Source: an uncultured Clostridia bacterium (GTDB lineage: Bacteria; Bacillota; Clostridia; Christensenellales; Borkfalkiaceae). From it: a DNA stretch of 64,000 nucleotides. The translations under genes were made by a program, and so were the position numbers. The DNA is taken from NCBI GenBank assembly GCA_947572415.1, contig CANPBT010000003.1:1-64000 (forward strand), in the 5' to 3' direction. The notes under the pieces were generated by a model. That model had not been told where the DNA came from and ran no database searches. It was given only the letters and a program-made list of their open reading frames with translations. How positions within the stretch are numbered: the first letter of the stretch is position 1; each line of letters starts with the position of its first letter. Positions 19,101 to 62,392 of this stretch are shown piece after piece.

Positions 19101-22100
19101 TTGGCGCTGCCGACGTCCGTAATGCTTGCAACGCGCGTATCGGGGACGACTATCACTTTGTGCCCGTCGACAAGCCTGTCGGCCGTTAAGCCGTCAACCT
19201 TATCCCCGTAAAGCGTATCTCCGTCATACACCTTTTCCGCGCTGCCCGTGGTTATAATAATTTTGCGGGGAGTGCGGTTGATTTTGCCCCACACATACTC
19301 GATAGCGTAGTTGCCCGTAACGTCCTTTTCGCCGTCCTTAACAAGGTAATAGACGGTGTTGTCCTTAGCCTCTTCGAGCACTTCGGTTACCCACGCAAAT
19401 TCGTCTTTCCTGCTTTCGTCTGCGGCAAGGGTATGCCCGCCGACAAGGTTATCGCCCGTTACTCCTCCCGTATAGGTAAGCGGGGTGCCGTCGTACTCCC
19501 TATCGAGGCTCGTGCCCGTGGTAATTACAAGCGGGCGCGCGGTGACCTCCAACTTGCCGTAACTGTATGTAATATCGTAGTTTTCGGTGGTTTTAAAATC
19601 GCCGTCGTAAACGTCGTAGGTTATACCGTTGCTTGTACTGCCCGCGTTTGTGAGCTGCGGGTCGTTTGTCGCCGTAAATTTGTTTTGTACAAACCCGATA
19701 AACTCGGTATCGCCGAAATCAAGCCCTTTAAGGGGCGTACCGTCGTATACCTTTGTATGCGTCTTTGTGATTATGCTAACCGCCTTTTTGGTTATCTGCA
19801 ATTTCCCCTCGATAACCGTTACAGCGTAGTTTGCGTTTATGCGCTCGTTGAGCTCTTCGTCCTCGCTATCCTTGGGGCGTACCTTGAAGTAAAGCGTGTT
19901 TTTAACTACGCCGTTTTCGCCGTCGAACGCGTTGAGCGCGAAAGCGAATTCCGCCTGCCTCGAATAGTCGAGCACCGCTTCGTGGTTTAACACAAGCCTG
20001 TCGGCTTTAAACCCGTCGAGCTTTTGCAACGGCGTTCCGTCGTATACCTTTTCGTCGGAAGCCGTCGTAATTTTCAGCGCGCGCGGAGTTACGCTTATTT
20101 TGCCCCAAAGCGGGTGATTCGGCTCATTATAAACATTTTCCCATGCATTGAAATTCTCGTAATTATAGCTGATATCCTTACCGTCTTTATCCAGAACCTT
20201 GAAAAACATTCTGTTGGCTACTTTGCCTTCAATAACGTCGGTTACGGAATCTATCGGCTTTGTTTCGTCTACGACAATCTGATGGAAGAACGGCTCGTCT
20301 GAAAGCACACCATTTCCCCCCTTTTTATATCCGTCGGTTTTTGTAAAAGGAGTGCCGTCGTATTCGCGCGAACCGCTTGCCGTCTGCACAAAATACATTC
20401 GCGGTTTTATACTTATTTTTCCGTAATTATAAGTTATTGAGTAATTGCCGCTTATGTCCTTGCCGTCCGCGTCGTGCACTAAATAGTGTACTTCGTTTTC
20501 GATTTCGCCTTCTATAACCTCGGTTACGGAAGCTATAAACTTGCTTTCGTCAGCAACGAGTTTGTGTCCGAATTCCTTTTTGAGCAGTCTGTCGGCTTCC
20601 CAGCCGGCCGTCATCGATTGAGCGTACCCGTTATAAGTCAAAACGACAGTTTTTGTAGTTACGGTTATCGCGCGGGCGTAAACGCTTAAATTGCCGCAGA
20701 TATACTTAATATCGTAGTTGCCGCTTATGTCATCGCCGTCGGCATTTTTAACTATATACGCAACCCTGTTTTCAACCTCGCCGACGTCGGTTATCGTCTT
20801 ATAATTTTCGCCGTCGACTGCGAGCGCGTGCCCCGAATCCTCTAAAAGATTTTCAACTTTTACGTACTCCGTGTTAGAGTGAATTTTTCCGTCGTACTCC
20901 CACTCGCCGTCGTCCGTCGTCACCGTGATTTCGCGCGGGGTCACCGTAAGCTTGCCGCAAACATACTCAATCGTATAATTACCGTTTACTATATGCTCCG
21001 CGTCGTCGGGGTCGATTACGCGGCACACGAATTTGTTGTCAACCGTATCTGCGTCGGTGATTTCCGTATATTTGTCCACAACGACGGTATGATTTAACAC
21101 CAGACGGGTTACGTCCTTTACCGTATTGTTGAAATGCAGCTTTCCATCGTAAACCCATTTGTCGGTTGCGGTGGTCACCGTGATTGTACGAGGAGTCACC
21201 GTAAGCTTACCGTTTATGTATGTAATTTCGTAATTCTCGTTCGCCCGTCCGTCGGTTTCGGATACTATTTTGCAGTCGAGTTGATTTTCAGTATTTCCGA
21301 CGTCGGTAATCTCGGCATGCGTAAGAACGAAAATTTTATGGCCTGGCATAAGCGGCGGCTCGCCGTCCTCGCGGGAAGGGGTCGCACCCTCGTTAAAGTG
21401 CGCTTTGCCGTCGTACTCGTACGAGCTTGTCGCCGTTGTCACCGTGATTGCACGCGGGGTAACGCTTATATTACCGTATATATATGTGACGGAATAATTA
21501 TAGCTTATATCCTCTTCGCCCGCATATATCGCGTACTCAACGGTATTTTCGACTTCGCCGTCGTAAACGTTCGTAACCGTCGCGTATCCGTCGCGCGCTT
21601 TAAGATAATGCCCCAAATCTTCCAAAAGCCTTTCGACTTTTTCGTAATTCGTGTTAAAATGCGCTTCGCCGTCATACTCGTCCGAGCTTGTCGCCGTTGT
21701 CACCGTGATTGCACGCGGAGTCACGCTTATTTTGCCGTAGATATAAGTTACGGAGTAATTGTAGCTTATATCCTCTTCTCCCGCATATATTGCGTACTCA
21801 ACAGCATTTTCGACTTCGCCCTCGTTTACGTCCGTAACCGTCGCGTATCCGTCAGCCGCGACAAGGTAATGACCGAACTCCTCCAAAAGCCTTTCGACTT
21901 TTGCGTAATTCGTGTTAAAATGCGCTTCGCCGTCATACTCGTCCGAGCTTGTCGCCGTTGTCACCGTGATTGCACGCGGGGTAACGCTTATACTACCGTA
22001 AATATATGTGACGGAATAATTATAGCTTATATCCTCTTCGCCCGCATATATGCCGTACTCAACCCTGTTTTCGACCTCGCCCTCGTTTACGTCCGTAACC

Positions 22101-23116
22101 GTCGCGTATCCGTCGCGCGCTTTAAGATAATGCCCCAAATCCTCCAAAAGCCTTTCGACTTTTGCGTAATTCGTGTTAAAATGCGCTTCGCCGTCATACT
22201 CGTCCGAGCTTGTCGCCGTTGTCACCGTGATTGCACGCGGAGTAACGCTTATTTTTCCGTATATGTAAGTTACGGAGTAATTATAGCTTATATCCTCTTC
22301 GCCCGAATATATTGCGTACTCAACAGCATTTTCAACTTCGCCCTCGTTTACGTCCGTAACCGTTGAATACCCGTCGCACGCGACAAGGTAATGCCCGAGC
22401 TCTTTCAAAAGCCTTTGGGCGTCCGCAACCGAAGTATCAAAGTATGCTTCGCCGTCGTACTCGTCCGAGCTCGTCGCCGTTGTTACCGCTATTTCGCGCG
22501 GGGTTATCGTAAGCGTGCCGTAGCTGTAAGTTACAGTATAATTATCCGTAACGGGATTGCCCGCGCCGTCCTTTATAATGTAGTAAACTACGTTTTCGGC
22601 TACGTCCTTTACCTCGGTTACCGAGGCGAATTCATGCGCGCGCTCTTCGTCGACTGCGAGCGTATGTCCCGAAACAAGGTTAACCGCCTCCGCACCGTCG
22701 GTGCAGACAAACGGCGTTCCGTCGTATTCGCGGCTTGCCGTTGCCGTCCGAATAACGACCGCGAGGGGAGTAATTTTAAGCGTGCCCGAAAAATTATAGC
22801 TTATTTCGTAATTTCCCGTGGTTTCCCTGTCGCCCGAAAAAATCGCGTACGTCGTTCTGTTTTCCGATACCCCGACGTCGGTCAATTCCGAAACGGCGGC
22901 GGCAACGCCGCGCTCGCCGTCCACTATTCCCTCGAACAACAGTCCGTTTAAAGCGTCCGAGCCGTACAGCGGGGTTCCGTCGTATACCTTTTCCGCGCTG
23001 CCCGTGCTTACGGTAAGCGGGCGGGGAGTTATTTCAAGCGTGCCGAAAACGCTGTTTATAAAGTAGCTTGCCGTCACGTCCTCGCCCGCCCCGTTGAGTA
23101 TAATAAACGTGAGCAC
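16184..23116 (-). CDS. Giant MBG-type repeat protein, C-terminal part after a frameshift
   Basis: This 2,310-codon frame is the main part of a ~2,765-residue surface protein whose N-terminus is in the frame at 23190-24482. It begins in the middle of a repeat, so the ATG here is probably not the real start; the frame is open upstream to about 23470. It consists of some 25 beta repeats of 75-95 residues. Each has a motif like ITPRxITVTTxTxxxxYDG, a GH or DGH turn, TDVxxxxN, and a closing NYxIxYxYGxLxVTPR. This matches the MBG-type domains of Gram-positive surface proteins. No LPXTG sorting signal is present at the C-terminus (ends YYKILQENL). Four units at 21400-22443 are nearly identical. Confidence 0.8.
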   Translation of the reverse strand: MLTFIILNGAGEDVTASYFINSVFGTLEITPRPLTVSTGSAEKVYDGTPLYGSDALNGLLFEGIVDGERGVAAAVSELTDVGVSENRTTYAIFSGDRETTGNYEISYNFSGTLKITPLAVVIRTATASREYDGTPFVCTDGAEAVNLVSGHTLAVDEERAHEFASVTEVKDVAENVVYYIIKDGAGNPVTDNYTVTYSYGTLTITPREIAVTTATSSDEYDGEAYFDTSVADAQRLLKELGHYLVACDGYSTVTDVNEGEVENAVEYAIYSGEEDISYNYSVTYIYGKISVTPRAITVTTATSSDEYDGEAHFNTNYAKVERLLEDLGHYLKARDGYATVTDVNEGEVENRVEYGIYAGEEDISYNYSVTYIYGSISVTPRAITVTTATSSDEYDGEAHFNTNYAKVERLLEEFGHYLVAADGYATVTDVNEGEVENAVEYAIYAGEEDISYNYSVTYIYGKISVTPRAITVTTATSSDEYDGEAHFNTNYEKVERLLEDLGHYLKARDGYATVTNVYDGEVENTVEYAIYAGEEDISYNYSVTYIYGNISVTPRAITVTTATSSYEYDGKAHFNEGATPSREDGEPPLMPGHKIFVLTHAEITDVGNTENQLDCKIVSETDGRANENYEITYINGKLTVTPRTITVTTATDKWVYDGKLHFNNTVKDVTRLVLNHTVVVDKYTEITDADTVDNKFVCRVIDPDDAEHIVNGNYTIEYVCGKLTVTPREITVTTDDGEWEYDGKIHSNTEYVKVENLLEDSGHALAVDGENYKTITDVGEVENRVAYIVKNADGDDISGNYDIKYICGNLSVYARAITVTTKTVVLTYNGYAQSMTAGWEADRLLKKEFGHKLVADESKFIASVTEVIEGEIENEVHYLVHDADGKDISGNYSITYNYGKISIKPRMYFVQTASGSREYDGTPFTKTDGYKKGGNGVLSDEPFFHQIVVDETKPIDSVTDVIEGKVANRMFFKVLDKDGKDISYNYENFNAWENVYNEPNHPLWGKISVTPRALKITTASDEKVYDGTPLQKLDGFKADRLVLNHEAVLDYSRQAEFAFALNAFDGENGVVKNTLYFKVRPKDSEDEELNERINANYAVTVIEGKLQITKKAVSIITKTHTKVYDGTPLKGLDFGDTEFIGFVQNKFTATNDPQLTNAGSTSNGITYDVYDGDFKTTENYDITYSYGKLEVTARPLVITTGTSLDREYDGTPLTYTGGVTGDNLVGGHTLAADESRKDEFAWVTEVLEEAKDNTVYYLVKDGEKDVTGNYAIEYVWGKINRTPRKIIITTGSAEKVYDGDTLYGDKVDGLTADRLVDGHKVIVVPDTRVASITDVGSAKNVLECTVARGDGTDASHNYEITGYNYGDLKITPRPITITTATAERVYDGKPLTKPVAEANDLVKEHTLKAVTVEVSITDVGDIENHYLFEVYDGERNVTGNYKIDYNYGRLKITPRIINVELNPTPDTVYGTPYAPYEVGLDKYANPDTIGLADGEKLEIASVAYHASGGRVEPKDAGVYEVVCDGLKIVGGRGKITNYEVTQTESYFEIKKLEITVALSVQAGREYNGEYYGFPSNSFTCSGTAYGETLTVGVDYYNGAGAEVTAPLDADTYSIKINSDKCRIDGNIPVTKNYLVIDGGGVDYTISPRQITVTTGGFKNEYNGKPQSLDKAEPEHVTSHGAESALIGGHTLRPARLPDITYVGKIKNEFVCTVWDGEKDVTDNYEITKYTYGTLEIIKRPIIVTVEDKIEEYTGAAVPDGKMSYVSVYGGGASGFINGDDKGAAVYAYRMGGVAVSPIERGIYSVEVSFNSNLVAENYDITFVAGKLEIVSRRVTVTAVARDFEYDGKPLDIALLSFNHVHTTDTDEEGFLNGDENLYTPKYTLTDASGNEYDFGEIIYAGEYTVSVELSSDVLSDGDYTIERYISCTLTVEKRKIYAEATLAKTRIDYTKKLPGASLFGFRDYHGDETGFVNGDGARAAAQYGFECGGNPALPINAGEYAVYVAGFTSADGFIESNYELIVNRELDKKLTVSPLTVVIAPVGKSELFCGQEIRVDSANVLYGGFIGGDVLGNIVCSDHLTPDKPLVLATITGFTVTDAESGEDVRGNYNVIYGYDKDNELLSGFKPTAFQAKLRYEKRSVTVRQAVPEEYRFFKYAGEAITFEADDTMLEVVADGDGLLDGFTVRAVGVKPMQKPGEYKNRIIAQVFDESGNNYVWAYSVTFTDDSPVITVEGITLSYTLGTDISSLPDGYVLNADEYFFSGELLKGDMFELKVENGQIIATVFTEITVGGEVKRRDRSAYYKILQENL
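21400..22443 (-). repeat. Tandem 261-bp repeats coding for MBG units
   Basis: Four consecutive units of exactly 261 bp (87 codons) start at 21400, 21661, 21922 and 22183. A fifth, more diverged boundary lies at 22444. They are highly similar at the DNA level, unlike the other MBG repeats of the gene, so they expanded recently. The unit encodes EYDGEAHFNTN, VERLLEDLGHYL, GYATVTDVNEGEVEN and EEDISYNYSVTYIYG. Confidence 0.9.
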
Positions 23117-23189
23117 GTTCGGCGCCTTGCCTGCGTTTAAGGTATCCGCAGCGTATACGAGCTTTTCGCCGTCATCCTCGGCAAGTCCG

Positions 23190-24482
23190 TCAAATACGTA
23201 CCCGTCGTTTTTTACAAGCGCTTGCCCGTCGTAAACCTTTTCCGCGGAAGCCGTAGTAAGCGTTACCTTCTTCGGGACGACGGTAAGCGTGCCGTACTCG
23301 TAAGATATATCGTAGTTTTCGGTAACGTCGGCTTCGCCGTCGGTTACGCGGAATATGTATTCGTTTAATATGCTGCCAGCTTGGGTTATGGCGACCTCGC
23401 CCGAAACGGGCGAAGCGGTATGCCCTTCGACGAGCCCCTCGGCACCGAAGCCCGCGTAAACGAACGGCTTCGTTATACTCGCGCGAGGCTGCGTCGGTTT
23501 TGATTTTCAACGGTCTGCGCCCGATAACGAGCGAGGACTCTTCCGTCTTTATGCCGTAGCGCTCGGTTACGTCGGTATCGCCCTTGAATATGCCGACTGA
23601 CTTCACCCTGACTTTATAGCTGCCCGCAAGCACGGGGGCGCCGTCGATTACTTCGTTATCCGAAGTAAGGATTTCTGTTTCCATGCTTATTCTGTCGCCC
23701 TCGCCGAGCATAGCAAGGGTGCTTTGAGCGACTGCCGCAACGTAGCCGACGGGCGCGCCGCCGTAAACGAACTCCGCGCCGACCGGGGTTACCGTAATTT
23801 CGCGCTCGACAAGCTTAATCTGTTTTTCCGGCGTGACAATATCGTAGCAATACGTTACGTCGTCGCCCTCCGAACCGATTATCTTTACGCTGTCCGCGTT
23901 TGCGCACACGCTTGTGATATCCGCTTCGAAGCCCGAAAAATCGTATTTAAGTCCGCTTACGATAAGCTTATCGCCGCCGACGAGGTCAAAGACGTATTCG
24001 TCCGGGTCGGCGCCGTACACGACGGCTTCGTCCAGGATTAAAAACTCGACGGTTTTCGGCTTGATTTCAAACTCGACGGGCGAGCCGTAACCCGTAATGC
24101 CGAAAGCCTTATCCGTAACAGTGCGGATATAGTAAACGCCCGCTTTATCGGGTTTTACCTCCGACCAGACAAGCCCGTCGCCGCCGGCAACGGCTGATTT
24201 TGCCGCGGACTTTGTATCGCCGCGCGGCGATTTATAGGCGTACTCGAACCTGACGTCGCTTAAAAGCGCTTTACCGCCCTCGGGCTCGTATAAATCGCCG
24301 TAAATTATCTGCGCGGGCAAAGTCGCCCCGTCGATCACAATGCCCTTTATTACGAGCAATGCGGTAACGGCGGCGAGGATAAGACAAATTACCGAAATTA
24401 TGAGTATGCGGAACTTTACGATAAAGTTCTTTACCGCGGCAATTTTGCGTATTCTGTTTTTATAAATATCGTATGATACCAT
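23190..24482 (-). CDS. Giant MBG-type repeat protein, N-terminal part before a frameshift
   Basis: The first ~335 residues are genuine: a signal anchor (FRILIISVICLILAAVTALLVI, with some 23 mostly basic residues before it) and beta-rich extracellular sequence that ends in the first MBG motif, IKTDAASREYN. After that the frame turns into arginine-rich nonsense (RCRGARRRAYRFARF). In the neighbouring frame the sequence continues at once as KPFVYAGFGAEGLVEGHTAS and onward into the 16184-23116 frame. The shift lies at about 23470/23471. The whole interval 16184-24482 is 8,299 bp, one more than a multiple of three. It follows the other MBG gene by 23 bp. Confidence 0.8.
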   Translation of the reverse strand: MVSYDIYKNRIRKIAAVKNFIVKFRILIISVICLILAAVTALLVIKGIVIDGATLPAQIIYGDLYEPEGGKALLSDVRFEYAYKSPRGDTKSAAKSAVAGGDGLVWSEVKPDKAGVYYIRTVTDKAFGITGYGSPVEFEIKPKTVEFLILDEAVVYGADPDEYVFDLVGGDKLIVSGLKYDFSGFEADITSVCANADSVKIIGSEGDDVTYCYDIVTPEKQIKLVEREITVTPVGAEFVYGGAPVGYVAAVAQSTLAMLGEGDRISMETEILTSDNEVIDGAPVLAGSYKVRVKSVGIFKGDTDVTERYGIKTEESSLVIGRRPLKIKTDAASREYNEAVRLRGLRCRGARRRAYRFARFGRGRHNPSWQHIKRIHIPRNRRRSRRYRKLRYILRVRHAYRRPEEGNAYYGFRGKGLRRASACKKRRVRI

Positions 24483-24505: not shown

Positions 24506-27439
24506 TTAAACCTTAATAACTTTCAATATTATGTAATCGTCGTCGCCGAAGTCGTAACAGTCCGTTACGTCCGCGCCCGCCGAATTTTTAATGACGATAG
24601 CTGTCGTACCGATTGTCATTGTGCAATCCGTTTTGTCGTAACTGCAAACGTACTGCCCGTCGTAATAGTCGCCCGAAGCGAGCGAGCCCGCCTGTACGGG
24701 GTTTACAGCCATTACGATTTCTTCTATTTCGTCGTCTGTCATATCTTTGCCGACGACAAGATTATCGAGCTTTAAAACGACCCTCTTTTTGTTAATCGTA
24801 ACTATTACGGTAGCTATATTTACCGTAAAGTTTTCGGAAGATACAGGCTCTCCGTTCAACGCAAACCGAGGGTTGCGGATATTGAGGTTGCCGTTTTGCG
24901 CCACCCTTACTATTTCGTCATACTCCGCGGCGGTCACGCGCAAACCCGTAAAGCCCGTGTTTATTTTATCGAACTCGGGCACAAACGGCGCTCCGTCGTA
25001 TACCTTGGTCGTTTTGCCGCCGTAGGTCAGCGAAACAGTTCTTTTGTTTATAGTGAAAGCCCCGCCCGTAACGGATATTTCATAGTTCGCCCCGTCGCCG
25101 CCCGCCACGGCAAAGCTTGCCGTAACGCGGTACGTCCCGCAGTCCTTTATACCTATAATATTGCTGTCGGTAAGGGTCAGCGCCGCTTCCGCGCAGGTAA
25201 ATTTTATGTCCGCCGCGGTTATGCCCTTTCCGTCGTATTCCTTTTCGCCGTCTGAAATGCGCACGGCGATTTTTTTCTTTTCCACAACGAGCAACCCTGA
25301 GGTAACCGTAACTTTGTAATTTTGCGTTTCGCCGTCGTATACGGGCTTCAGTACGTAAGTGCCCGCGTCGCATCCGTTAAAGTTGTCGAACGCGAATTTA
25401 TCAACAGTCACGTCGCCCTCGCAGCCCGATATGAGCCCTCTCAGCTCCTCGTCGCTTACCTGTTCGCCGTAAACCTTTACAAGCCCGTTTACGGTTACGT
25501 TTACCGTTTTCGCGTGGACCGTCAGCGTACCGAAATTCTCCGTCACGGTATAATTGCCCGAGCATATCCCGCCCTCTGCGTTTAAAATTTCATACGAGGG
25601 CTTGTTTTCGATACTGTCCGCGTCGGTCAGCTCGATAACCGAAGTCTGCGAAATATAGTCGCCCGCGGCAAGCCCTGCGGCAATTATGCCGCCGCCCGAA
25701 AGGGCCGCGCCGTCGTAGACCTTTTCCGCGTCGGCCGTGCTTACGGTAAGCTGCCGCGCCGTAATTTTTACGTCCGTAAAAGCGGAAGAATATCCCAAAG
25801 AATAGTTGCCCGTAACGTCCGCGCCGAACGCGTCGCGCACGGTCGCGGAGGTAATTAAGCACCTTACGGGGGCCTCGGCGACGTCGATTACTTCCGTGCA
25901 TACGACCGAGCTTATTTTATGCCCGTCGAGCAACCCCGTAGCCGACACATCCCCGTCGCGGAACGAAAACGGCTTTCCGTCGTACGTTTTGCCGTAAGCC
26001 CCGCCCCCGGCGACGTTAACCTCCGCCCTGCGCGGGGTTACGGTTATTTTACCCGCGACCACGTTTATTATAAAGCAATCGGTAAAATCGTTGCCATCTT
26101 CGTCCGACACGCCGTAATCTGTTATAGTATACGTAGACGAGCCGACCTCGCCGAATGAATTTACGCTTTGAGCTATATCCGAAGCAAAGGTCATGCCTAC
26201 GGAAAGCTCGGGCTCGAATTTAAAGAGCGATTTAAATTCGTCAATGCTTTCCCCGTACGTTTTCGCAACGGAAGCAAGTCTTACGGTAAGGTTTGCGGGG
26301 GTTACGCGTATAGTGCCCGAAACCAAGGTCACGTTATAGTTGCCGTTGCCGCCCGATATCGCGTAATCGGTTATTACGTTGTCAACCTCGCCTACGCGCT
26401 TAATCTGCCCGCCGTAAGTAACCGTTACGCTTTCGCCGCTTACAAGCCCGACCGCGGAGTAAGGCGCACTGTCTTCGGCAAACGAGTGTATCGCGCCGTC
26501 AAAATTTACCGTACGGCTCTTCGCCGTTAGCACGAGGTCGCGCGGGGTTACGCGCAATGTCGCGTATTCCTCGCTGTTTATGGCATAGTTGCGGGTAACG
26601 TCTTTTCCGTTCGCGTCGAATACGGTTACCTCGGCAACAACTTTCACCTCGCCGACGAACGTCTGCGCGGCATATTCGCCGTCCACCGGCACGAAATCAA
26701 CCTTGGCATAGTGCCCGTCGACGAGCGAGCCCGAAGTGATTTCATACCTGTCGCACACGAGCGGCTTGCCGTCGTAAACCTTTTCGCCGCCGATTGGCCG
26801 CACCGCAAGAGGACGGGCGACGACTTTAACCTCGCCCATAGAGAACAGTATATCGTAATTTTCCGACACGTTGCGCCCCGCGCCGTCGTAAATTGCGGGT
26901 GCCGCCGCCTGACCGGAAAGCACTTCGCCCGCGTTTATCAGCCCAGAACCGGGTAGGGCAAGCGCGGGGCGGTGCCCATCGGCAAGCGTGCCGGCAACCA
27001 CTGTATAGTCGTCGAACACATATTTTTCGCCGCTGTACACGGCTTCGCCCGCGTTGAGATAAATAAGCACGGGGCTCTTTTCTACTTTCAGTTTTCCGCC
27101 ATTAACTTTGACGGCGTATTCTTCGGTTACGTCGTAGCCGTTTTCGTCGACAACCTTAACGTTCATTCCGCCGACGCTTTCGCCGACGAACGTCTGCGAG
27201 CCGGTAAAGTCGGCGATAATACTGTGCCCTTTGAAAAGCTCGCCGCCCATTGCGTAAGCCGTGGGGGTCTGCGGCTCGCCGTCGAAAGTTTTCGTTTCGT
27301 CCTTTACGGTGAATATAAGCGGCGCGGGCTCGGCTTTGATTGCCCCGGATAAAGAGAGCGCAAGCAAAGTGGCAAGCGACGCCGCAATACACGCCGCAAG
27401 CAAACCGAGTATTAATATCGCAGTTTTGAATTTTGCCAT
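24506..27439 (-). CDS. Membrane-anchored MBG-type repeat surface protein
   Basis: A 977-residue protein with an N-terminal signal anchor (~5-32) followed by about eleven MBG-type beta repeats, from FTVKDETKTFDGEPQ to the C-terminus. Repeat hallmarks include KVYDGKPLV, KTYDGKPFSF, LVDGHYAKVDF, DVTENYAVKVNGGKLKV and YG-type units (AKTYGESIDEFKSLF, KVYGEQVSDEEL). No C-terminal sorting signal is seen, so it is likely held by the anchor. MBG repeats occur in adhesins and stalks; the ligand is unknown. GGGAGAGAG precedes the ATG. It is a paralogue of the giant protein encoded just downstream. Confidence 0.85.
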   Translation of the reverse strand: MAKFKTAILILGLLAACIAASLATLLALSLSGAIKAEPAPLIFTVKDETKTFDGEPQTPTAYAMGGELFKGHSIIADFTGSQTFVGESVGGMNVKVVDENGYDVTEEYAVKVNGGKLKVEKSPVLIYLNAGEAVYSGEKYVFDDYTVVAGTLADGHRPALALPGSGLINAGEVLSGQAAAPAIYDGAGRNVSENYDILFSMGEVKVVARPLAVRPIGGEKVYDGKPLVCDRYEITSGSLVDGHYAKVDFVPVDGEYAAQTFVGEVKVVAEVTVFDANGKDVTRNYAINSEEYATLRVTPRDLVLTAKSRTVNFDGAIHSFAEDSAPYSAVGLVSGESVTVTYGGQIKRVGEVDNVITDYAISGGNGNYNVTLVSGTIRVTPANLTVRLASVAKTYGESIDEFKSLFKFEPELSVGMTFASDIAQSVNSFGEVGSSTYTITDYGVSDEDGNDFTDCFIINVVAGKITVTPRRAEVNVAGGGAYGKTYDGKPFSFRDGDVSATGLLDGHKISSVVCTEVIDVAEAPVRCLITSATVRDAFGADVTGNYSLGYSSAFTDVKITARQLTVSTADAEKVYDGAALSGGGIIAAGLAAGDYISQTSVIELTDADSIENKPSYEILNAEGGICSGNYTVTENFGTLTVHAKTVNVTVNGLVKVYGEQVSDEELRGLISGCEGDVTVDKFAFDNFNGCDAGTYVLKPVYDGETQNYKVTVTSGLLVVEKKKIAVRISDGEKEYDGKGITAADIKFTCAEAALTLTDSNIIGIKDCGTYRVTASFAVAGGDGANYEISVTGGAFTINKRTVSLTYGGKTTKVYDGAPFVPEFDKINTGFTGLRVTAAEYDEIVRVAQNGNLNIRNPRFALNGEPVSSENFTVNIATVIVTINKKRVVLKLDNLVVGKDMTDDEIEEIVMAVNPVQAGSLASGDYYDGQYVCSYDKTDCTMTIGTTAIVIKNSAGADVTDCYDFGDDDYIILKVIKV

Positions 27440-27487: not shown

Positions 27488-28972
27488 TTAAATATTTTGT
27501 TCTATGAGCCTTATTGCTTCCTTGCATAAAGGCAGCTTATCCTCGCCGAACAGCTCGTCGAGATACCCGCACACCCCGTCAGCCATCTGCTTTACGTACA
27601 CCGGGTTTTTAGATTCGAGCTTCCTGAACACCTTCCTCGACAGTATGTCGTCAAGCCCCTCCAGCTCGCTTCCTCCGCAACCCACTATCACCGGTACGTA
27701 GCTTCTTATCTGCTTCATTATTCGGTTCCCGAACGTGATATGAAACGTCTTTATCATATATTCGTCCAAACACTTCAACCGCCTTATATTCCTGTCGCTT
27801 ATCGCGTATTCTCGCTGCGCCCGCGCAAACAGCTCTTCGAGCCGCACCGCGCTCAGCTTCATTCCCTTACAGCTTTTCGCCTCGAACGGCACCGCCTTTT
27901 TGTCAAGATTCAGCACCATCGCCCTGTCGTATACCTTATCCGATATCGAAAACGTACTGTCATCGTTGTTCGCCGTACCCACAAACCACATATTCGTCGG
28001 AAGCCTCAGCTTTCCGTTCTTCTGCAACAACTTCGGGTCGTTTTCCCATTTGTCCGCCACTACGTCCAGATTCCTACCGTCCGGGTTCGGGATTTCCAAC
28101 AACGACAAAAACTCCGCAAAATAGTATTCCACTCGCGCTATGTTCATTTCGTCCAGAACGGTTATGTATATCTCGTCGTTGCAGTTCGCCTCGTACATCT
28201 TATACAACAGCGTCGTTTCGTTGAACCGCTTTGTGAATTCGTTATAGTACCCCACCAGGTCCGTACGCTCTTTCCACATCGGCTGGATGGGTACGATTAC
28301 CGTCTTGTTGTCTAAAAACTCTCCGAACGCGTACGCCAGCGAGGTTTTACCCGTACCCGACATACCTTGCAGTATTATCAGCTTTGTTACCGCAAGCCCG
28401 CCTATAAACCGCCTTATATCCTCTATATCGTAATATAATTTCAACCGACCCGCCGCGAAGTTTCTGAACTCCTCGCACACCCCTTGCAAGCTCGTCTCTC
28501 CGTCGTACTCGGGCGAGGGTTTGTTTTCGTATTCTTTGTCTATCTCCGTCAGCATATAGAAGCGCGAGCCGTTGCCCTTCGCTTCTTCCCCGTCCTCCGT
28601 CTTTTCTGCCGTACCCAAAGGCGCGGGATATGCCGCGGGCAACGCGTAATTCGCGTTTAAATCGGGGTCGACGCTTTTAAGCTTTTCCTTTTCTCTGTTC
28701 TCGAAATCCACGCCGAGGTAGTCGAAAGTCACCAGCTTCTTTTTGTCAAGCCCGAAGCAAGCCGTAAGCGCAAGAAGGATAATGACCGCTGGCAAAAAAA
28801 TCACGAATGCAAGGCATATATACCCGAACCACGACGGCACGGAGGGTAGAAGCTTAACCCCGTATTTGTCGTACTGCACGATAAGGGCGCACACGAAAAG
28901 GGCGGCAAGGCAGAGTATCGCCGTAACTGTTACGAAAATTTTCAGTTTTTTCGATTTTTTGCGCCCTTTCAT
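27488..28972 (-). CDS. Membrane-anchored McrB-like AAA+ ATPase, copy 1
   Basis: A 494-residue protein with two N-terminal membrane segments (~11-33 and ~48-73), a ~60-residue linker and an AAA+ domain. Walker A is GMSGTGKTS (~203-211), Walker B is ITVLDEMN (DE ~274-275), the sensor-1 segment is FVGTANNDDS (~330-338), and an arginine-finger candidate is VYDRAM. The GTANNDD motif and long insert are like the McrB/MoxR branch. The domain should lie on the cytoplasmic face and hydrolyse a nucleotide to remodel partner proteins. Residues from ~116 to the C-terminus are identical to copy 2. Start at 28972 lies 2 bp after the stop of the coiled-coil gene. Confidence 0.88.
   Translation of the reverse strand: MKGRKKSKKLKIFVTVTAILCLAALFVCALIVQYDKYGVKLLPSVPSWFGYICLAFVIFLPAVIILLALTACFGLDKKKLVTFDYLGVDFENREKEKLKSVDPDLNANYALPAAYPAPLGTAEKTEDGEEAKGNGSRFYMLTEIDKEYENKPSPEYDGETSLQGVCEEFRNFAAGRLKLYYDIEDIRRFIGGLAVTKLIILQGMSGTGKTSLAYAFGEFLDNKTVIVPIQPMWKERTDLVGYYNEFTKRFNETTLLYKMYEANCNDEIYITVLDEMNIARVEYYFAEFLSLLEIPNPDGRNLDVVADKWENDPKLLQKNGKLRLPTNMWFVGTANNDDSTFSISDKVYDRAMVLNLDKKAVPFEAKSCKGMKLSAVRLEELFARAQREYAISDRNIRRLKCLDEYMIKTFHITFGNRIMKQIRSYVPVIVGCGGSELEGLDDILSRKVFRKLESKNPVYVKQMADGVCGYLDELFGEDKLPLCKEAIRLIEQNI
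27516..28628 (-). repeat. 1,113-bp near-identical repeat, copy 1
   Basis: This stretch matches 30939-32051 base for base except at 28613 (A versus G at 32036), judged by reading both copies. It covers nearly the whole AAA+ domain. Outside it, the last nine codons encode identical residues with many synonymous differences. Confidence 0.93.
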
Positions 28973-28974
28973 AT

Positions 28975-30837
28975 TTAATCTTTATCAGCCTTTTTCGGAT
29001 TTTTCGATTTCTTTTCCGGTTTTGCCCAGAGTATCTGTTTGCGTATCTGTTTTTTCGTAAGCTTCCACTGTTCGCTGAAATATCGCTCGAACGCGGCGAA
29101 CTCCTCCTGAAGCTCCAAAAACCTCTCGCGCGAGGTGTAATCGATATCGGGCGCGAGCTCGCCCTTCTGCACCCTTATCGCGTCAAGCTGACCCGCGATA
29201 AAATAATTTTCACGCTTGATTTCCTCGACCGCTTTTTCACACTCGCTCTTTTTAAGCTCGAAGTCGTTCATATATTCCCGCTCCGCCGCCTTTATCCGCG
29301 CTTCGCAGTCGTCCACCGTCTTTTTCAGCTCGGCTTTCAATTCGCTTTGCTTCTGCTCGAATATAAGCGACTTTTGCCCGAACTCCTCCGCCGCCATTTC
29401 GTATTTATCGTTCAAAGCGCTTATGTCGTCGTTAAGCCCGCTTATTTTAAGCTCGTATTCGTCGATAGTGCTTTGAATTTTTTGCCCGAACTCCGCGTTG
29501 AGCTCCGCAACGGCGCTTTCGTGCGCGGCGTTCACTTCGGCGAGTTCCTGCTCATGCCGCCTCTTTTCCGCCGCCATATCGTCGATATACTTCTGGTTTA
29601 ACAGCGCGATTTCCCGCTCTTTTTCCTCTATCGCGGCTTCGAGCTCGCCTATCCTTAAACCGAGCCCCGCCTTCTCGCGGTTTAGCTCTTCTATTTCAAG
29701 ATTGAGTTTATCAACCTCGCGGCGGATTAGCGCAAGCTTTTCGCTGTCCTTTTCGAGCATTCTGTTGCGCTCTTCGAGAAGAAGCATATATTCTTCGAGC
29801 GTTTTATTCGATTCGAGCGCGCGTTTTTTGAGCCTTTTAATCCTTTCCGAAAGTTTAAGCGCTTTTTGTTCCTCGCGCCGGTTTTCCTCCTCCCTGTACG
29901 CCGCTTCGAGGATATTTTCGATATCGTTGCCGAACTTATACGCGGTGAAAGCCGTAAGGTTCACCGACTCGGCGATTTCGTCCGCAAGCTTGTCGGAGTA
30001 GGGCGAAAGGTCGCGCGTGACCTCCTCGAATTCGTAACCCTGCCCGTTATACGTCGCCACATAATCGTAAAGCGCAAGCGCGCGCTTGAAGTTGTTGTTC
30101 ATTTTAAGCACGTTCGTCTTTACGACGGGCGGCTTTATCATCGGCGACTTAGCGACCTGAACCATCAAATCGGTAGCAAGCAGCGAGGTTATAATCTGCA
30201 TACAGTCCTTTATCCTCTTAACGAGCGAAGCCGAATTTTCGTCGGGCAGAGGAAAAGGGTTATCCGTCCTTTCCTCGCGCACCTCCGATTTTATGATAAG
30301 GGTGCGCTTTTTGGTTACAATCTCTTTCGAAATACTTAAATCGCCTATATACGTATTGCGCAGAGTTTCTATCTTTTCGAGCCTGTAATTTATGAAGTCG
30401 CGCAGATAGCATAAAAGCATATACAAAAATCTGTTTTCGTAAACCGCGTAATCGCTGAGTTTTTCTACCATATAAAGCTGGTCGGGCACAATGTCCGCCC
30501 CATCTTCGGGTACGCGGGTTATCAGATCGCCGTGCTTTGCAAGATGCTCGACCGAGTCCTTTGAAATACGTTTAACCTTTTCAATGGGTATAACTTCGCC
30601 GTCGGTGCGTATAAACTGCCTTTCTTCGCGCACGGCGTTTTCGACGAAAACCAGCCCTTCCTCAATCGTTTTGACCCAGTCCTCGTCTATCCGGCACAAA
30701 TATTTTGTTGTGATAAATTTGTCATCGGTTTCGTTATTCCGCGTTATCGCCTTTCTATCCTTTTCACACAGAGTGTTTTCAAAGGTTTCCTTGCGGTAAT
30801 TTTTAAACGCCCGATAATAAATATCCAAAACGCCCAT
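28975..30837 (-). CDS. Coiled-coil protein with possible DUF2357-like N-terminal domain
   Basis: A 620-residue soluble protein. The N-terminal half (~1-310) is globular and contains DYAVYENRFLYMLLCYLRDFI (~128-148), which resembles the ENR segment of DUF2357 proteins that accompany McrB-like ATPases. No PD-(D/E)XK nuclease motif was found. From ~325 to ~560 it is a long heptad coiled coil rich in Glu, Lys and Leu. The tail is basic (KKQIRKQILWAKPEKKSKNPKK). Being placed between the two McrB-like ATPase genes, it is the likely partner of one or both motors. AAGGAAAA precedes the ATG. Confidence 0.75.
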   Translation of the reverse strand: MGVLDIYYRAFKNYRKETFENTLCEKDRKAITRNNETDDKFITTKYLCRIDEDWVKTIEEGLVFVENAVREERQFIRTDGEVIPIEKVKRISKDSVEHLAKHGDLITRVPEDGADIVPDQLYMVEKLSDYAVYENRFLYMLLCYLRDFINYRLEKIETLRNTYIGDLSISKEIVTKKRTLIIKSEVREERTDNPFPLPDENSASLVKRIKDCMQIITSLLATDLMVQVAKSPMIKPPVVKTNVLKMNNNFKRALALYDYVATYNGQGYEFEEVTRDLSPYSDKLADEIAESVNLTAFTAYKFGNDIENILEAAYREEENRREEQKALKLSERIKRLKKRALESNKTLEEYMLLLEERNRMLEKDSEKLALIRREVDKLNLEIEELNREKAGLGLRIGELEAAIEEKEREIALLNQKYIDDMAAEKRRHEQELAEVNAAHESAVAELNAEFGQKIQSTIDEYELKISGLNDDISALNDKYEMAAEEFGQKSLIFEQKQSELKAELKKTVDDCEARIKAAEREYMNDFELKKSECEKAVEEIKRENYFIAGQLDAIRVQKGELAPDIDYTSRERFLELQEEFAAFERYFSEQWKLTKKQIRKQILWAKPEKKSKNPKKADKD

Positions 30838-30910: not shown

Positions 30911-32374
30911 TTATATATTCTGCTCAATCAATCTGATAGCTTCCTTGCATAAAGGCAGCTTATCCTCGCCGAACAGCTCGTCGAGATACCCGCACACCCC
31001 GTCAGCCATCTGCTTTACGTACACCGGGTTTTTAGATTCGAGCTTCCTGAACACCTTCCTCGACAGTATGTCGTCAAGCCCCTCCAGCTCGCTTCCTCCG
31101 CAACCCACTATCACCGGTACGTAGCTTCTTATCTGCTTCATTATTCGGTTCCCGAACGTGATATGAAACGTCTTTATCATATATTCGTCCAAACACTTCA
31201 ACCGCCTTATATTCCTGTCGCTTATCGCGTATTCTCGCTGCGCCCGCGCAAACAGCTCTTCGAGCCGCACCGCGCTCAGCTTCATTCCCTTACAGCTTTT
31301 CGCCTCGAACGGCACCGCCTTTTTGTCAAGATTCAGCACCATCGCCCTGTCGTATACCTTATCCGATATCGAAAACGTACTGTCATCGTTGTTCGCCGTA
31401 CCCACAAACCACATATTCGTCGGAAGCCTCAGCTTTCCGTTCTTCTGCAACAACTTCGGGTCGTTTTCCCATTTGTCCGCCACTACGTCCAGATTCCTAC
31501 CGTCCGGGTTCGGGATTTCCAACAACGACAAAAACTCCGCAAAATAGTATTCCACTCGCGCTATGTTCATTTCGTCCAGAACGGTTATGTATATCTCGTC
31601 GTTGCAGTTCGCCTCGTACATCTTATACAACAGCGTCGTTTCGTTGAACCGCTTTGTGAATTCGTTATAGTACCCCACCAGGTCCGTACGCTCTTTCCAC
31701 ATCGGCTGGATGGGTACGATTACCGTCTTGTTGTCTAAAAACTCTCCGAACGCGTACGCCAGCGAGGTTTTACCCGTACCCGACATACCTTGCAGTATTA
31801 TCAGCTTTGTTACCGCAAGCCCGCCTATAAACCGCCTTATATCCTCTATATCGTAATATAATTTCAACCGACCCGCCGCGAAGTTTCTGAACTCCTCGCA
31901 CACCCCTTGCAAGCTCGTCTCTCCGTCGTACTCGGGCGAGGGTTTGTTTTCGTATTCTTTGTCTATCTCCGTCAGCATATAGAAGCGCGAGCCGTTGCCC
32001 TTCGCTTCTTCCCCGTCCTCCGTCTTTTCTGCCGTGCCCAAAGGCGCGGGACGCGCGCAATCGGGCGGGATATATACGGGGGTCTGCGCCGTTTTAATGC
32101 TTTCCGCAAGGTTATCGAGCTTTTTATCGAGTCTTTTTTCGGCAAGCTCCGCCTCCTCTTTCCGCGCCGCTTCCTCCTTGCCCGAAAGCTCCTCTTTGAG
32201 CGCTGTGGCACGACCCGTTTCCGACACGACGAGCCGCACCGCGAGCACGATTACGAGCACGAGAATAACGACGGAATACACAAGCAAAGCGGTTTTGCTT
32301 GTGACCGTATTCCATATTCTGTTGCCGACCGCCGCCCAGTCGACGGCGCCGAGCGCGTAATATGCTTTAATCAT
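30911..32374 (-). CDS. Membrane-anchored McrB-like AAA+ ATPase, copy 2
   Basis: A 487-residue protein. Its N-terminus differs from copy 1: one membrane segment (TALLVYSVVILVLVIVLAV, ~27-45) followed by a short charged coiled coil (EELSGKEEAARKEEAELAEKRLDKK). From PAPLGTAEKTE onward it is identical to copy 1, with the same Walker A, Walker B and sensor motifs. The two therefore place one motor domain on two different anchors. The start at 32374 was chosen because GAGGTAAGGGCA precedes it and it leaves a 10-bp gap after the upstream stop. An upstream in-frame start would overlap the previous gene by 59 bp. Confidence 0.87.
   Translation of the reverse strand: MIKAYYALGAVDWAAVGNRIWNTVTSKTALLVYSVVILVLVIVLAVRLVVSETGRATALKEELSGKEEAARKEEAELAEKRLDKKLDNLAESIKTAQTPVYIPPDCARPAPLGTAEKTEDGEEAKGNGSRFYMLTEIDKEYENKPSPEYDGETSLQGVCEEFRNFAAGRLKLYYDIEDIRRFIGGLAVTKLIILQGMSGTGKTSLAYAFGEFLDNKTVIVPIQPMWKERTDLVGYYNEFTKRFNETTLLYKMYEANCNDEIYITVLDEMNIARVEYYFAEFLSLLEIPNPDGRNLDVVADKWENDPKLLQKNGKLRLPTNMWFVGTANNDDSTFSISDKVYDRAMVLNLDKKAVPFEAKSCKGMKLSAVRLEELFARAQREYAISDRNIRRLKCLDEYMIKTFHITFGNRIMKQIRSYVPVIVGCGGSELEGLDDILSRKVFRKLESKNPVYVKQMADGVCGYLDELFGEDKLPLCKEAIRLIEQNI
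30939..32051 (-). repeat. 1,113-bp near-identical repeat, copy 2
   Basis: Pairs with 27516-28628 at a constant offset of 3,423 bp. Both ends are sharp: downstream bases switch at once to synonymous variants, upstream bases to an unrelated N-terminus. Confidence 0.93.
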
Positions 32375-32384
32375 TGCCCTTACC

Positions 32385-35300
32385 TCAACCGTTAAGCGCT
32401 TTGCGGATAAACGTAATATCCTCGTCGCCGAAAATTTTTTCAATCATACCCGCAAGCGTAGCCCCGCCGTTTTCGCCGCGATATATGTCGGTGTTTTTGA
32501 GAAGCGGAACTATCTTGGAGGTAAACGCGCATACAAGCGCCTCGTTCTCGTCGCCGCCGCAGTCGATTATGACCGAGGTGAATTTTTCAAGCGACTGAAC
32601 GTCTTTATTGCCTATGGCGAACCTGCCGGTCGCGTTCACCGCTTCCGCAAGCTCGTCAATCCTCTTCCAACTCTTTTCGGAAAGGAAGCACCTTTCGCGC
32701 ACTTCCGAAACCATTTCGTTAAGCGCGGCACGCGTAACGTTTTTGGCCTCCGCTTCGGGGAATTCGCCCTCCGCCGCGGAAGCTATCACGTCGACGTGTA
32801 TAAACGCCTTGGAGAGTTCGGGCGGAAGCTCGCGCTCGCCCTCGGCGGCAACGAGTACGTACGTTATATTGTCGGGCAAAACGAGGGTAAGCTCGTCGCT
32901 TAACTCAATCGCCCGCTCCTCCGACGGATACACCGAATGCAGTATAAAGTCGCCGAAGTATTTTTTCAGGTTCGCACCCTTTACGCCCGCCAGCACCACC
33001 GCCATGTTTTTATCGGGCGTCAGACACGCGGAGTTGAGCGTATTTGCGAAATCGGAGGTCACGAACGCTTCAGCCTCTTCCACCCACAGCAAATCTTCGG
33101 GCTCGTCCCAGTTGTCGCCCGCGGCGGTGTATGCGGTATTGCCGAAATACGCATTAAGCGCGGCGGTAAACTCGGGCAGGATTTGAGCATTTGCGCAGTT
33201 AACGTAAACAGCCTTGCCCGCCGTTATAGCGGCGATGAGCGCGCGCACGGAGGACGCTTCAACCGAAACGCCCTTATAAAGCATAAACGCGCGGAAGTTA
33301 TCGCAAAGCTCCGTAAAGGACGCCTTCTTCTCGTACACGGGCGCAATCCGCTCCTCTTCGCCAAACGCCGCGGCGTACTGCGCCTTCACCTCTTTGTCGG
33401 GCTGTTGCTCTTCGGGCTGTTCTTCCTCAATTTCGGGCGCGGGCGCGGGGACGGGCTCCTCGTAGGAAATTTTCGCTATTTCTTTAAAGCACCCCACTCT
33501 TTCGACTATATCGCCCAGAACCTCCTTGGGGTAAAGCCTTCGTTGCAGTCTGCGCCTCTTTGATATAACTATTATGTAAATCAATGCAAACACGTTTCCG
33601 ACCGCGAGCAACGCGGCCAGAACCGCGCAAAGTATAAAATTCTCTTCGGGAATATTCACGTATAAAAGCGCGCCGCACATGCCGTCGTAATACAGCGTAA
33701 CCATAAGCGCGAAGAAAAGTCTGAGCCCGAAAGACAGCTTCTTTTTCTCTCTTGTTACCGCTTCTTCCTCTCTCGTGCGGGTAAAGCCTACGGGCATTAT
33801 ATCGTCGGTTACGTCCTCGCGCAAAGCGTCGTCCTTGCCGAACACGTGCTCTTTAAGCGTTATTTCGCCTTTCAGCCTGATATCCGCCGCACTTTCGCCG
33901 ATACGGATTTCATATGAACCGCCCTCGACGCGGTAAACGCCGTTTTCTTCGTCGTACGTCCTGAACGTGCCCGCGTCAAACGGGATTTCCACCTTGACTG
34001 CGTCGCCCTTGCCGATAAACGTCCTTTTAAAGCCGCGTAAAAGCCTGTGTTTAAACGACGACGAGGTTGCGACGTTTGAAATATACATCTGCGGAACGGC
34101 ATAGCCGTCGCAACCGCCGACGTTAACCGCCGTAAAGCTTACGCCGTTTTCGGTAACGGTAAGATTTCTGTATTCGAACGAGGTATAGGAAAGCCCGTGC
34201 CCGAAAGCAAACCGCACGTTGTCGCGGTCGGTATAACCGGATACGCTTGCATAACCCTCCTTTTCGGACAAAACCGCGGGGAAGGTTTCGGCAAGCTTAC
34301 CCGACGGGCAGACTTCGCCCGTGAGTATATCCGCGACGGCGGCGTGAACGGCCTGACCGCCCCGCCCGGTAAATAGTATCGCCGACGCCCGGTCGGCAAA
34401 CGGCATATCGATTGCGCCGTCCGCGCTGACGACGGCTATATATTTTATCTTTTTCGCCGAAAGCTCGTCTAAAAGCTCACGCTGCCCCTCGGGCAACTCC
34501 TTCGCGCCCTTTGCCGCCGAGAGATATACGAGCGCGCAATCCGCCTGAGCGCAGAGCTCCGTAGCGGAGGCGATAAGGTCGCCGCGCCCGCGCTGCCCTT
34601 TGGCGTAGCCGTGAGCGTAACCGACCGTTTCGATATCGAAATCGTTCAGGACTTCGAAAGGAAGCCTGACCGCGGTTGGCGTCGTCTTTACGAGCTCTGT
34701 CTGATAGTCGGCGTTTTTTGCGTATTCGCCGATTACCGCGACTTTGGTTTTGAAATCGAGCGGAAGTATGCCGCCCTTGTTTTCGAGAAGCACGACACTC
34801 TCCGCCGCGGCAAGCCGAGCGAGCTTATCGTGCAGGCGCTCGTTGAATAGAGCGTCCCGCCCGATATCGAGCGAGCTGCGCGCCCCGTCAACCGAAGCCG
34901 GAGTCTGCGCGCGCAGATTTAATAGCGCGGATATTACGTCGTCGCAAGCGCGGTCGACAATCCGTTCGTCGAGAATTTCGCCGCAACGCTTTCTGCGGTC
35001 GAATTCGGCAAGCGTGATTTTGCGCGCGGAATACTCCGATTCGGATTTTTTATAAAGCTCGGTAAGCGTTTTAAGACGGGGAAAAAGCTCTTCGGAAATG
35101 TCGCGCTTTAAAAATACGAGCGAGCACCCGTAAAAAAGATACCGCGCGACCTCCTCCGTCTCGGACGCCGCGCCGTATAAAAGCCCGCCGAAGCGGTACT
35201 CGGGCGGAAGTTTTTCCGCCTCTTCTATGCTGTGAACTAATACCGAAGCAGGCTGCGCACCGCCGAAAACGCAGCTTTCGAAAAGCTTTAAGCTTTCTTT

Positions 35301-35714
35301 CGCGCCGTCCGCAGACGAACTCTCGAAGTTTACGAGTACGCCGGCAGAGGCAACCCCGCCGATTTTCTGCGCGGCAAAATTGCCCGAAAGGAAATAATCC
35401 TCGGACGAATTTTCACGGTTTAAATCATTGCTTACGTTGAAATACGCGTTTTCCGCGGCGGCTTTCGCCTCGTTGCCGACGGCGCGGTAAACTTCACGGA
35501 TAAGCGGCATATCGAATGTGCGGCAAAGCGTGTTGTCCGACGGAAAAAGCGTTTGATAAGCCCCTGCTTTACCCGACAAAGGATTTGCCGAAAGCGAAAA
35601 TACGGGGAATTTATAATTGTCGACCGAGCTGCTTTCGTAAAGCCTGGAAGATATGATAAGGCGTAGCTTCTGGTCAAAAGACATTCTTATAATAAGCTCT
35701 TCGTTTTTCAACAT
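32385..35714 (-). CDS. Pseudo-GH3 glycosidase fused to two TMs and a pseudo-AAA+ domain
   Basis: About 1,109 residues. Residues ~1-650 follow the GH3 beta-glucosidase layout, with conserved late segments such as ESVVLLENKGGILPL, CPSGKLAETFPAVLS, RFAFGHGLSYTSFEY and FKRTFIGKGDAVKVEIPFDAGTF. The catalytic barrel is degraded: the VISDW nucleophile segment aligns with GLLYGAAS and the KHFAANNQE motif is absent. Two membrane segments lie near 665-720, flanked by basic residues on both outer sides, so both ends look cytoplasmic. After an acidic linker, the last ~310 residues align with the cluster's AAA+ ATPases, but Walker A (GMSGTGKTS) is NCANAQILP and Walker B (VLDEMN) is VLAGVK. There is no signal peptide. 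ATG at 35714 has AAGGGG upstream. First gene of the cluster. Confidence 0.85.
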   Translation of the reverse strand: MLKNEELIIRMSFDQKLRLIISSRLYESSSVDNYKFPVFSLSANPLSGKAGAYQTLFPSDNTLCRTFDMPLIREVYRAVGNEAKAAAENAYFNVSNDLNRENSSEDYFLSGNFAAQKIGGVASAGVLVNFESSSADGAKESLKLFESCVFGGAQPASVLVHSIEEAEKLPPEYRFGGLLYGAASETEEVARYLFYGCSLVFLKRDISEELFPRLKTLTELYKKSESEYSARKITLAEFDRRKRCGEILDERIVDRACDDVISALLNLRAQTPASVDGARSSLDIGRDALFNERLHDKLARLAAAESVVLLENKGGILPLDFKTKVAVIGEYAKNADYQTELVKTTPTAVRLPFEVLNDFDIETVGYAHGYAKGQRGRGDLIASATELCAQADCALVYLSAAKGAKELPEGQRELLDELSAKKIKYIAVVSADGAIDMPFADRASAILFTGRGGQAVHAAVADILTGEVCPSGKLAETFPAVLSEKEGYASVSGYTDRDNVRFAFGHGLSYTSFEYRNLTVTENGVSFTAVNVGGCDGYAVPQMYISNVATSSSFKHRLLRGFKRTFIGKGDAVKVEIPFDAGTFRTYDEENGVYRVEGGSYEIRIGESAADIRLKGEITLKEHVFGKDDALREDVTDDIMPVGFTRTREEEAVTREKKKLSFGLRLFFALMVTLYYDGMCGALLYVNIPEENFILCAVLAALLAVGNVFALIYIIVISKRRRLQRRLYPKEVLGDIVERVGCFKEIAKISYEEPVPAPAPEIEEEQPEEQQPDKEVKAQYAAAFGEEERIAPVYEKKASFTELCDNFRAFMLYKGVSVEASSVRALIAAITAGKAVYVNCANAQILPEFTAALNAYFGNTAYTAAGDNWDEPEDLLWVEEAEAFVTSDFANTLNSACLTPDKNMAVVLAGVKGANLKKYFGDFILHSVYPSEERAIELSDELTLVLPDNITYVLVAAEGERELPPELSKAFIHVDVIASAAEGEFPEAEAKNVTRAALNEMVSEVRERCFLSEKSWKRIDELAEAVNATGRFAIGNKDVQSLEKFTSVIIDCGGDENEALVCAFTSKIVPLLKNTDIYRGENGGATLAGMIEKIFGDEDITFIRKALNG

Positions 35715-35891
35715 ACCGGTCACCCCTTAGTCAGTCTTGAATGATTTTTTAAAATCAGTCGGCATATATTATACCACATACGCCGCATTATGGCAATTAT
35801 TTGATCAATTTGTGAAAAATTTTTTAAGAGTTTGTTTTGAATATACGACTGTGCGCCATAATTTTACCGAAACGATAAAAATAAGTCAAAC

Positions 35892-62166: not shown

Positions 62167-62392
62167 ACAATCACCCTTACAAATTATTTTTGTTGCACGA
62201 GGCGCAAAAAATACACGCGCGCGCAATAACCTTTATAACTTGCTATATTGTAACACATTATGATAAAAAAGAAAAGTGTTTTTTCATAAACTGCACTTTT
62301 TTTGACATAAAAGGTAAATTTTAATTAAAATCGCGTAAAAATCGCGCTCCGTCAGGGCTGCCGGACGACTGCAAACCGCAAAAAATTGCTTC

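Follow-up and report, generated by a model that had tools for sequence, protein, structure and literature searches.

The fusion gene and its surroundings

The window, i.e. the whole stretch of 64,000 nucleotides that was analysed, carries a gene that encodes in one protein a GH3-fold part, a pair of predicted membrane helices and an McrB-like AAA+ domain (pAAA), both folds lacking their catalytic motifs. It is followed by genes for two active AAA+ proteins, a DUF2357 protein and large surface-type proteins (Table 1). The fusion ORF ends at 32385 and starts either at a GTG at 35723 or at an ATG at 35714. The ATG is preferred because a Shine-Dalgarno-like AAGGGG site is located 8 nt before it and because many relatives of the protein start at an equivalent MLKNE or MIKNR. 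A plus-strand reading of 32385-35714 was discarded on account of its 17 stops. For the first active AAA+ gene the ATG at 32374 is the likely start; a longer ORF beginning with TTG reaches 32443.

A Pfam scan of the fusion protein revealed only GH3_C (9e-29) and an Fn3-like domain (4.7e-13) and matched neither the GH3 N-domain (PF00933, E 0.1) nor any AAA family. The original prediction, made by reading the sequence, of a GH3 enzyme and an AAA+ enzyme that are joined in one protein and both inactive therefore goes beyond the standard library. It was nevertheless borne out, since both folds were found and both sets of motifs are gone. In the predicted structure of the fusion protein, the linker is of low confidence and the C-terminal domain (residues 803-1112) of high confidence.

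Table 1. Features of the locus, in positions of the window
Feature	Position	Strand	Basis or remark
Fusion gene: dead GH3, two-helix membrane hairpin, dead McrB-like AAA+ (pAAA)	32385..35714	minus	1109 aa from ATG
GH3-fold part, residues ~4-625: reduced barrel, alpha/beta sandwich, Fn3-like	33849..35714	minus	Foldseek, motif table, Pfam
Two predicted membrane helices (hairpin), residues ~665-728	33540..33731	minus	hydropathy and model
Dead AAA+ domain (pAAA), residues 803-1112	32388..33317	minus	hhalign, AF2, Foldseek, motif count
McrB-like active AAA+ motor 1 with ANNDD and a single predicted TM helix	30911..32374	minus	Pfam AAA_5, McrB match, RBS
Homogenised direct repeat, copy 1	30911..32051	minus	1141 bp, 99.1% to copy 2, 1097 bp exact
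DUF2357 protein of the McrC N-terminal family, long coiled-coil-like region	28975..30837	minus	Pfam DUF2357 6e-6
Active AAA+ motor 2, N-terminal membrane anchor unlike that of motor 1	27488..28972	minus	motor domain near-identical to motor 1
Second copy of the homogenised direct repeat	27488..28628	minus	pairs with copy 1
Surface-type protein with an N-terminal membrane helix and with YDG and MBG_2 repeats	24506..27439	minus	downstream of cassette
Second YDG/MBG-type surface protein gene	16184..24482	minus	split by frameshift near 23461
237-aa membrane protein and 852-aa LRR-type protein	11523..14781	minus	homologues near pAAA elsewhere

The dead AAA+ domain

An end-to-end alignment of the C-terminal ~310 residues with the neighbouring AAA+ proteins agrees exactly with what had been quoted in the original prediction; in hhalign, pAAA and an active neighbour match with a probability of 100 (E = 7.8e-40) over 321 columns. 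Modelled alone with AF2, pAAA reached a pLDDT of 94, and its top PDB match in Foldseek was McrB (6hz4), followed by NorQ and MCM, all of them AAA+ proteins, so that the assignment of the fold stands. The Walker A (GMSGTGKTS) and Walker B (VLDEMN) motifs of the active neighbours are replaced in pAAA, and sensor 1, the Nx(x)D motif and the arginine of the DRAM motif of the active proteins have disappeared as well. Walker A and Walker B, like sensor 1, the Nx(x)D motif and the DRAM arginine, are absent in 59 of 59 pAAA rows, which represent 57 distinct sequences owing to two pairs of duplicate genomes (L038 = L060, L040 = L064), whereas both Walker motifs are present in 42 of 42 active paralogues. 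The most conserved part of pAAA is the C-terminal lid (E..WKK.D, GN[KR]), in which the sensor-2-like GNR mostly takes the form GN[KR].

The dead GH3 domain

The full AlphaFold2 model retrieved as best Foldseek match the GH3 beta-glucosidase 7ms2 (E=2.7e-36, TM 0.66 of target), which confirms the GH3 fold proposed for the N-terminal part. For a comparison of residues, 49 fusion rows were aligned with 25 rows of ordinary GH3 proteins, taken from the same genomes and from related ones; these 25 include one duplicate, L002 being the window's own intact GH3 paralogue (59758-62226). GLLYGAASE of the fusion protein comes to lie under GVVISDWAG of this paralogue, and both the loss of the nucleophile (SDW) and the loss of KH, as originally claimed, hold in the alignment. 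In addition to these, the fusion protein lacks the acid/base loop (SEAEGLD in the paralogue), a loss that the original prediction did not contain; in the closest relatives of the window fusion the loop is likewise wholly missing. KH, the nucleophile Asp, the acid/base Glu and the sugar-binding SDG..R are kept in 25 of 25 control rows and gone in every alignable GH3 fusion, the GH3 part of two members (L073, L083) being too divergent for residue calls and that of two others (L054, L099) being cut by contig ends. Two fusions (L110, L114) contain a TD dipeptide one column off the nucleophile position; neither of them has KH or the acid/base motif. The intact paralogue, which retains all catalytic motifs, has a C-terminal extension and lies ~24 kb from the dead GH3.

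A catalytic pair relocated elsewhere in the GH3 half was rejected, as no near-invariant acidic pair exists across 42 sequences and among the acidic residues only the SED aspartate is kept. What is conserved, namely SED, LP, PSG and a YPFG.GLSYT motif, looks structural in character. Judged from these alignments, the GH3 half has retained its fold but not its active site. The observation that two active sites were lost in one protein is thus confirmed, and the losses recur in all pAAA rows and all alignable GH3 fusions.

Membrane topology

Hydropathy and the structure model place the membrane helices at residues 665-688 and 693-728. A two-helix hairpin or a similar cluster of membrane segments was found in the linker of 45 of the 49 GH3-fusion rows, a few of which score 3-5 segments; in four members there is no membrane segment and the two domains are joined by a short soluble linker. 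A signal peptide could not be recognised in the fusion protein, and positive flanks occur on both outer sides of the helix pair. Two helices, the missing signal peptide, the positive flanks and the four naturally membrane-free members together place GH3 and pAAA on the same side, most likely the cytoplasmic face of the membrane, as far as sequence and model allow. A fusion through the membrane, which had originally been assumed, was therefore rejected in favour of a hairpin.

The active AAA+ proteins and the DUF2357 protein

Both active AAA+ proteins have predicted TM segments, both display ANNDD at the position of the Nx(x)D motif of McrB-type proteins, and McrB is the only PDB family they match. 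The generic label of ATPases, given to them earlier, does not fit: the NxD motif and the McrC/DUF2357 partner mark them as McrB-like. McrB proper uses GTP. The PADLOC candidate family PDC-M26A also matches the active AAA+ proteins (6e-44). The DUF2357 protein gave SMC-like coiled-coil matches, PF09823 was found once in the genome, and a sequence search against the PDB yielded coiled-coil-type matches only; its kinship to McrC is suggested by Pfam and genomic context. Domain-family and profile searches revealed no nuclease domain in the cassette proteins, the DUF2357 protein included.

In the 40 genomes that contain both active genes, the median DNA identity between them is 99.1% over ~1.1 kb spanning the motor domain. 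Identity is at least 99% in 21 of the 40 and clearly lower in L044, L085, L098, L108, L117 and L119. At the end of the shared stretch there is a sharp switch from near-identical motor DNA to unrelated membrane anchors. Between species the active AAA+ proteins are only 43-73% identical, which, compared with 99.1% within genomes, indicates repeated homogenisation of the pair. Recurrent gene conversion between the twin motors is thus apparent from the sequences in Clostridia and Bacilli-type genomes. pAAA, the dead paralogue, has stayed outside this homogenisation.

Gene order of the cassette

The order is pAAA, AAA, DUF2357, AAA and then large surface proteins. The active AAA+ served as bait in collecting the loci, and the following counts therefore describe genes beside that family rather than pAAA genes in general: the pAAA gene directly precedes an active AAA+ gene in 55 of 55 loci (median gap 12 nt), the DUF2357 gene follows the first active AAA+ in 44 of 49 loci with sufficient room, and the second active AAA+ is found in 39 of 39 loci that have room for it. 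This supports the original view that the fusion protein is a probable partner of the neighbouring NTPases. Five loci (L076, L088, L093, L096, L097) have neither DUF2357 nor a second AAA+ despite sufficient room, and whole-genome searches of four of them, covering at least the contigs of 3 kb and above, uncovered no close DUF2357. The missing genes could be due to excision between the direct repeats or to assembly collapse, which are indistinguishable here because identical repeats break assemblies.

In L046 (237-1073) and L047 (13782-14618), which belong to the same genus, a 278-aa multi-helix membrane protein replaces pAAA before AAA-DUF2357-AAA. That it is a remnant of pAAA was rejected, as it shows no match and is unrelated. 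The pAAA gene is present in only some genomes of the genus. An AAA-DUF2357-AAA unit without pAAA and this patchy occurrence indicate that some versions of the machine can do without pAAA.

Downstream of the cassette, the loci encode large YDG/MBG/AgI_II_C2-type proteins, sometimes with transglutaminase-like domains. The second surface protein gene of the window is divided by its frameshift into ORFs 23190-24482 (430 aa) and 16184-23116 (2310 aa), which form one long ORF in relatives. In many Clostridia a ~231-aa membrane protein and LRR_5 proteins are encoded directly upstream of the pAAA gene; their homologues in the window are downstream. Among the families listed for those flanking proteins that were scanned, none stands for signal-peptidase or pilus-assembly genes; surface-type proteins with MBG/YDG, transglutaminase-like and LRR domains are found there instead. 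The link of the cassette to surface proteins is one of gene association.

Selection, phylogeny and distribution

Pairwise dN/dS amounts to 0.11-0.28 in both halves of the fusion gene, which shows that both are under purifying selection. Because the losses recur in homologous rows and dN/dS is well below 1, they are not due to chance. The pAAA family evolves faster than the active motors and forms in the tree a single clade apart from the active AAA+ proteins (support 100). Shorter forms without GH3, from Anaeroplasmataceae, Haloplasma, some Oscillospiraceae and other Clostridia, are nearest to the split from the active proteins, and the GH3 state changes once. Most likely, therefore, the dead AAA+ domain is the older element and GH3 was gained later in one event; in this tree, which was built quickly and contains several long branches, the exact order of the basal forms is uncertain. 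The loss of both sets of motifs is ancient. Lineages without GH3 retain the rest of the cassette. In the GH3-free pAAA of L072, L076 and L092, inspection by eye disclosed a zinc-ribbon-like CxxC N-terminus in place of GH3.

The loci derive from Clostridia and from Acholeplasmatales/Anaeroplasma/Haloplasma-type records. The pAAA profile matched in only 23 of 293 sampled genomes of the class, and strong matches outside the source genome had the size of active AAA+ proteins, from which it follows that by sequence search the system is rare at class level.

Comparison with known systems

McrB of the McrBC type IV restriction system (6hz4, 6ut6) provides the best profile match and the top structural match of pAAA, is the sole PDB family that the active neighbours match, and has in McrC a partner whose N-terminal family is DUF2357. 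In contrast to McrB, Walker A/B and the N..D motif are missing from pAAA, and unlike McrBC, the cassette is membrane-anchored, is devoid of a recognisable nuclease and comprises three paralogues instead of one. It is read, from its domains and gene order, as a membrane-anchored McrBC-like machine.

The main text of Bell et al. 2024 (PMC11090510) describes an NxD clade in which the motif is often followed by D or E and which is accompanied by coiled-coil McrC homologues; a membrane-linked branch, named CoCoPALM, was left for later work. By sequence, CoCoNuT/CoCoPALM appear to be the nearest described systems. As characterised in that text, they share with the window neighbours NxD followed by D and an N-terminal membrane segment on GTPase-like proteins, and with the DUF2357 protein the nature of a coiled-coil McrC homologue without nuclease. 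These features belong to the neighbours, not to the fusion protein, and make the cassette a candidate member of CoCoPALM. No mention of a dead third subunit, GH3 fusion or twin motors was seen in the main text of that paper, and a search beside the window cassette brought up no signal-peptidase/pilus genes of the kind that characterise CoCoPALM.

With GH3 beta-glucosidases such as BglB of Clostridium thermocellum (7ms2) the fusion protein shares the fold, the domain order and homologous alpha/beta sandwich and Fn3-like domains. It differs in lacking the catalytic and -1 subsite motifs, in its probably cytoplasmic tether and in its fusion to AAA+. A search of the open-access literature retrieved no GH3-AAA+ pseudoenzyme, in agreement with the original statement that no described family of this kind was known.

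Non-catalytic membrane-anchored AAA+ domains with active partners are known from the TorsinA activators LAP1/LULL1 and from inactive subunits of FtsH-type hetero-hexamers. LAP1 and LULL1 supply an arginine finger. The likeness to these proteins is a functional analogy only, a catalysis-free AAA+ domain beside an active one; they belong to an unrelated AAA+ branch, have no GH3 domain, and for pAAA the role of an arginine finger is not supported.

Proposed function

The fusion protein probably belongs, as a paralogous subunit that does not hydrolyse nucleotides, to an NTPase machine that is McrBC-like and anchored in the membrane. Homology and gene order suggest that it is a member of the ring, and it likely serves as a scaffold or regulator of the motor. 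Several other interpretations were considered. If the original suggestion of a sugar sensor is developed further, the GH3 half would act as a cytoplasmic receptor for a sugar, nucleotide sugar or glycan fragment and switch the motors via pAAA; this draws on a GH3 fold that is retained under purifying selection and on surface proteins of the cluster that could be glycosylated. It nevertheless appears improbable and was not supported, since SDG..R and the other -1 subsite residues were lost together with KH, SDW and the acid/base residue, the single near-invariant acidic residue leaves no conserved binding site visible, and lineages without GH3 keep the motor cassette. A membrane-linked anti-phage defence of the McrBC/CoCoNuT kind with the dead subunit as regulator would agree with the McrB/McrC kinship and the PADLOC match, but is equally improbable given that the cassette proteins contain no nuclease domain and are surrounded in stable order by surface-protein genes, not by defence genes.

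pAAA might also stay outside the ring and mainly activate or cap the motor by analogy to LAP1/LULL1 on TorsinA. A motif-free membrane-anchored AAA+ domain beside membrane-anchored active AAA+ proteins fits such a role, for which the conserved C-terminal lid could provide the interface. Since the arginine that corresponds to the LAP1/LULL1 finger is missing from pAAA and since DUF2357 already is the activator in McrBC systems, this too is improbable. Finally, a decaying pseudogene or an assembly artefact might account for a faster-evolving family in which both enzyme halves are inactive by motif. This is scarcely credible for a gene that is intact, and in the same gene order, in dozens of independently assembled genomes and that has a confident folded model; the conserved ORFs and the dN/dS values led to its rejection.

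As a non-hydrolysing subunit, the fusion protein would be tethered to the membrane by its hairpin with both domains in the cytoplasm. The dead AAA+ domain would dock to, or join, a ring of the two active motors and give it a fixed, asymmetric or anchored position; as the DRAM arginine is absent, pAAA inside the ring would not act in trans through that residue. The DUF2357 protein would stimulate hydrolysis, as McrC does for McrB. GH3 probably serves for docking or as a scaffold, and perhaps binds a ligand; it was presumably a later single addition, its place being taken in other lineages by the zinc-ribbon-like region or by nothing. The motor probably acts on the giant MBG/YDG and LRR surface proteins of the cluster, whose assembly, export or regulation it would serve; this is favoured over DNA restriction because no nuclease was found. 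A more far-reaching and rather doubtful proposal is an undescribed heteromeric membrane machine in which gene-converted twin motors with different anchors are combined with an asymmetry-building dead paralogue, and in which GH3 couples the machine to surface-protein assembly or export.

The fusion is a broadly conserved case of two unrelated enzyme folds that were stripped of catalysis and kept in one protein. The cassette appears to be an McrBC-type motor devoted to the cell envelope, not to nucleic-acid restriction, and predicts a heteromeric ring of two twin active subunits and one dead subunit. It may offer a handle on how giant surface proteins are handled in gut Clostridia and their wall-less relatives.

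A second AAA+/DUF2357 pair

L049, L050 and L052, of the same genus, contain a second, more distant pair of a membrane AAA+ and a DUF2357 protein. Beside it are encoded short exported proteins that by eye look like the TasA/camelysin type and have no Pfam match; in L052 the pair is also adjoined by EAL/GGDEF-domain proteins.
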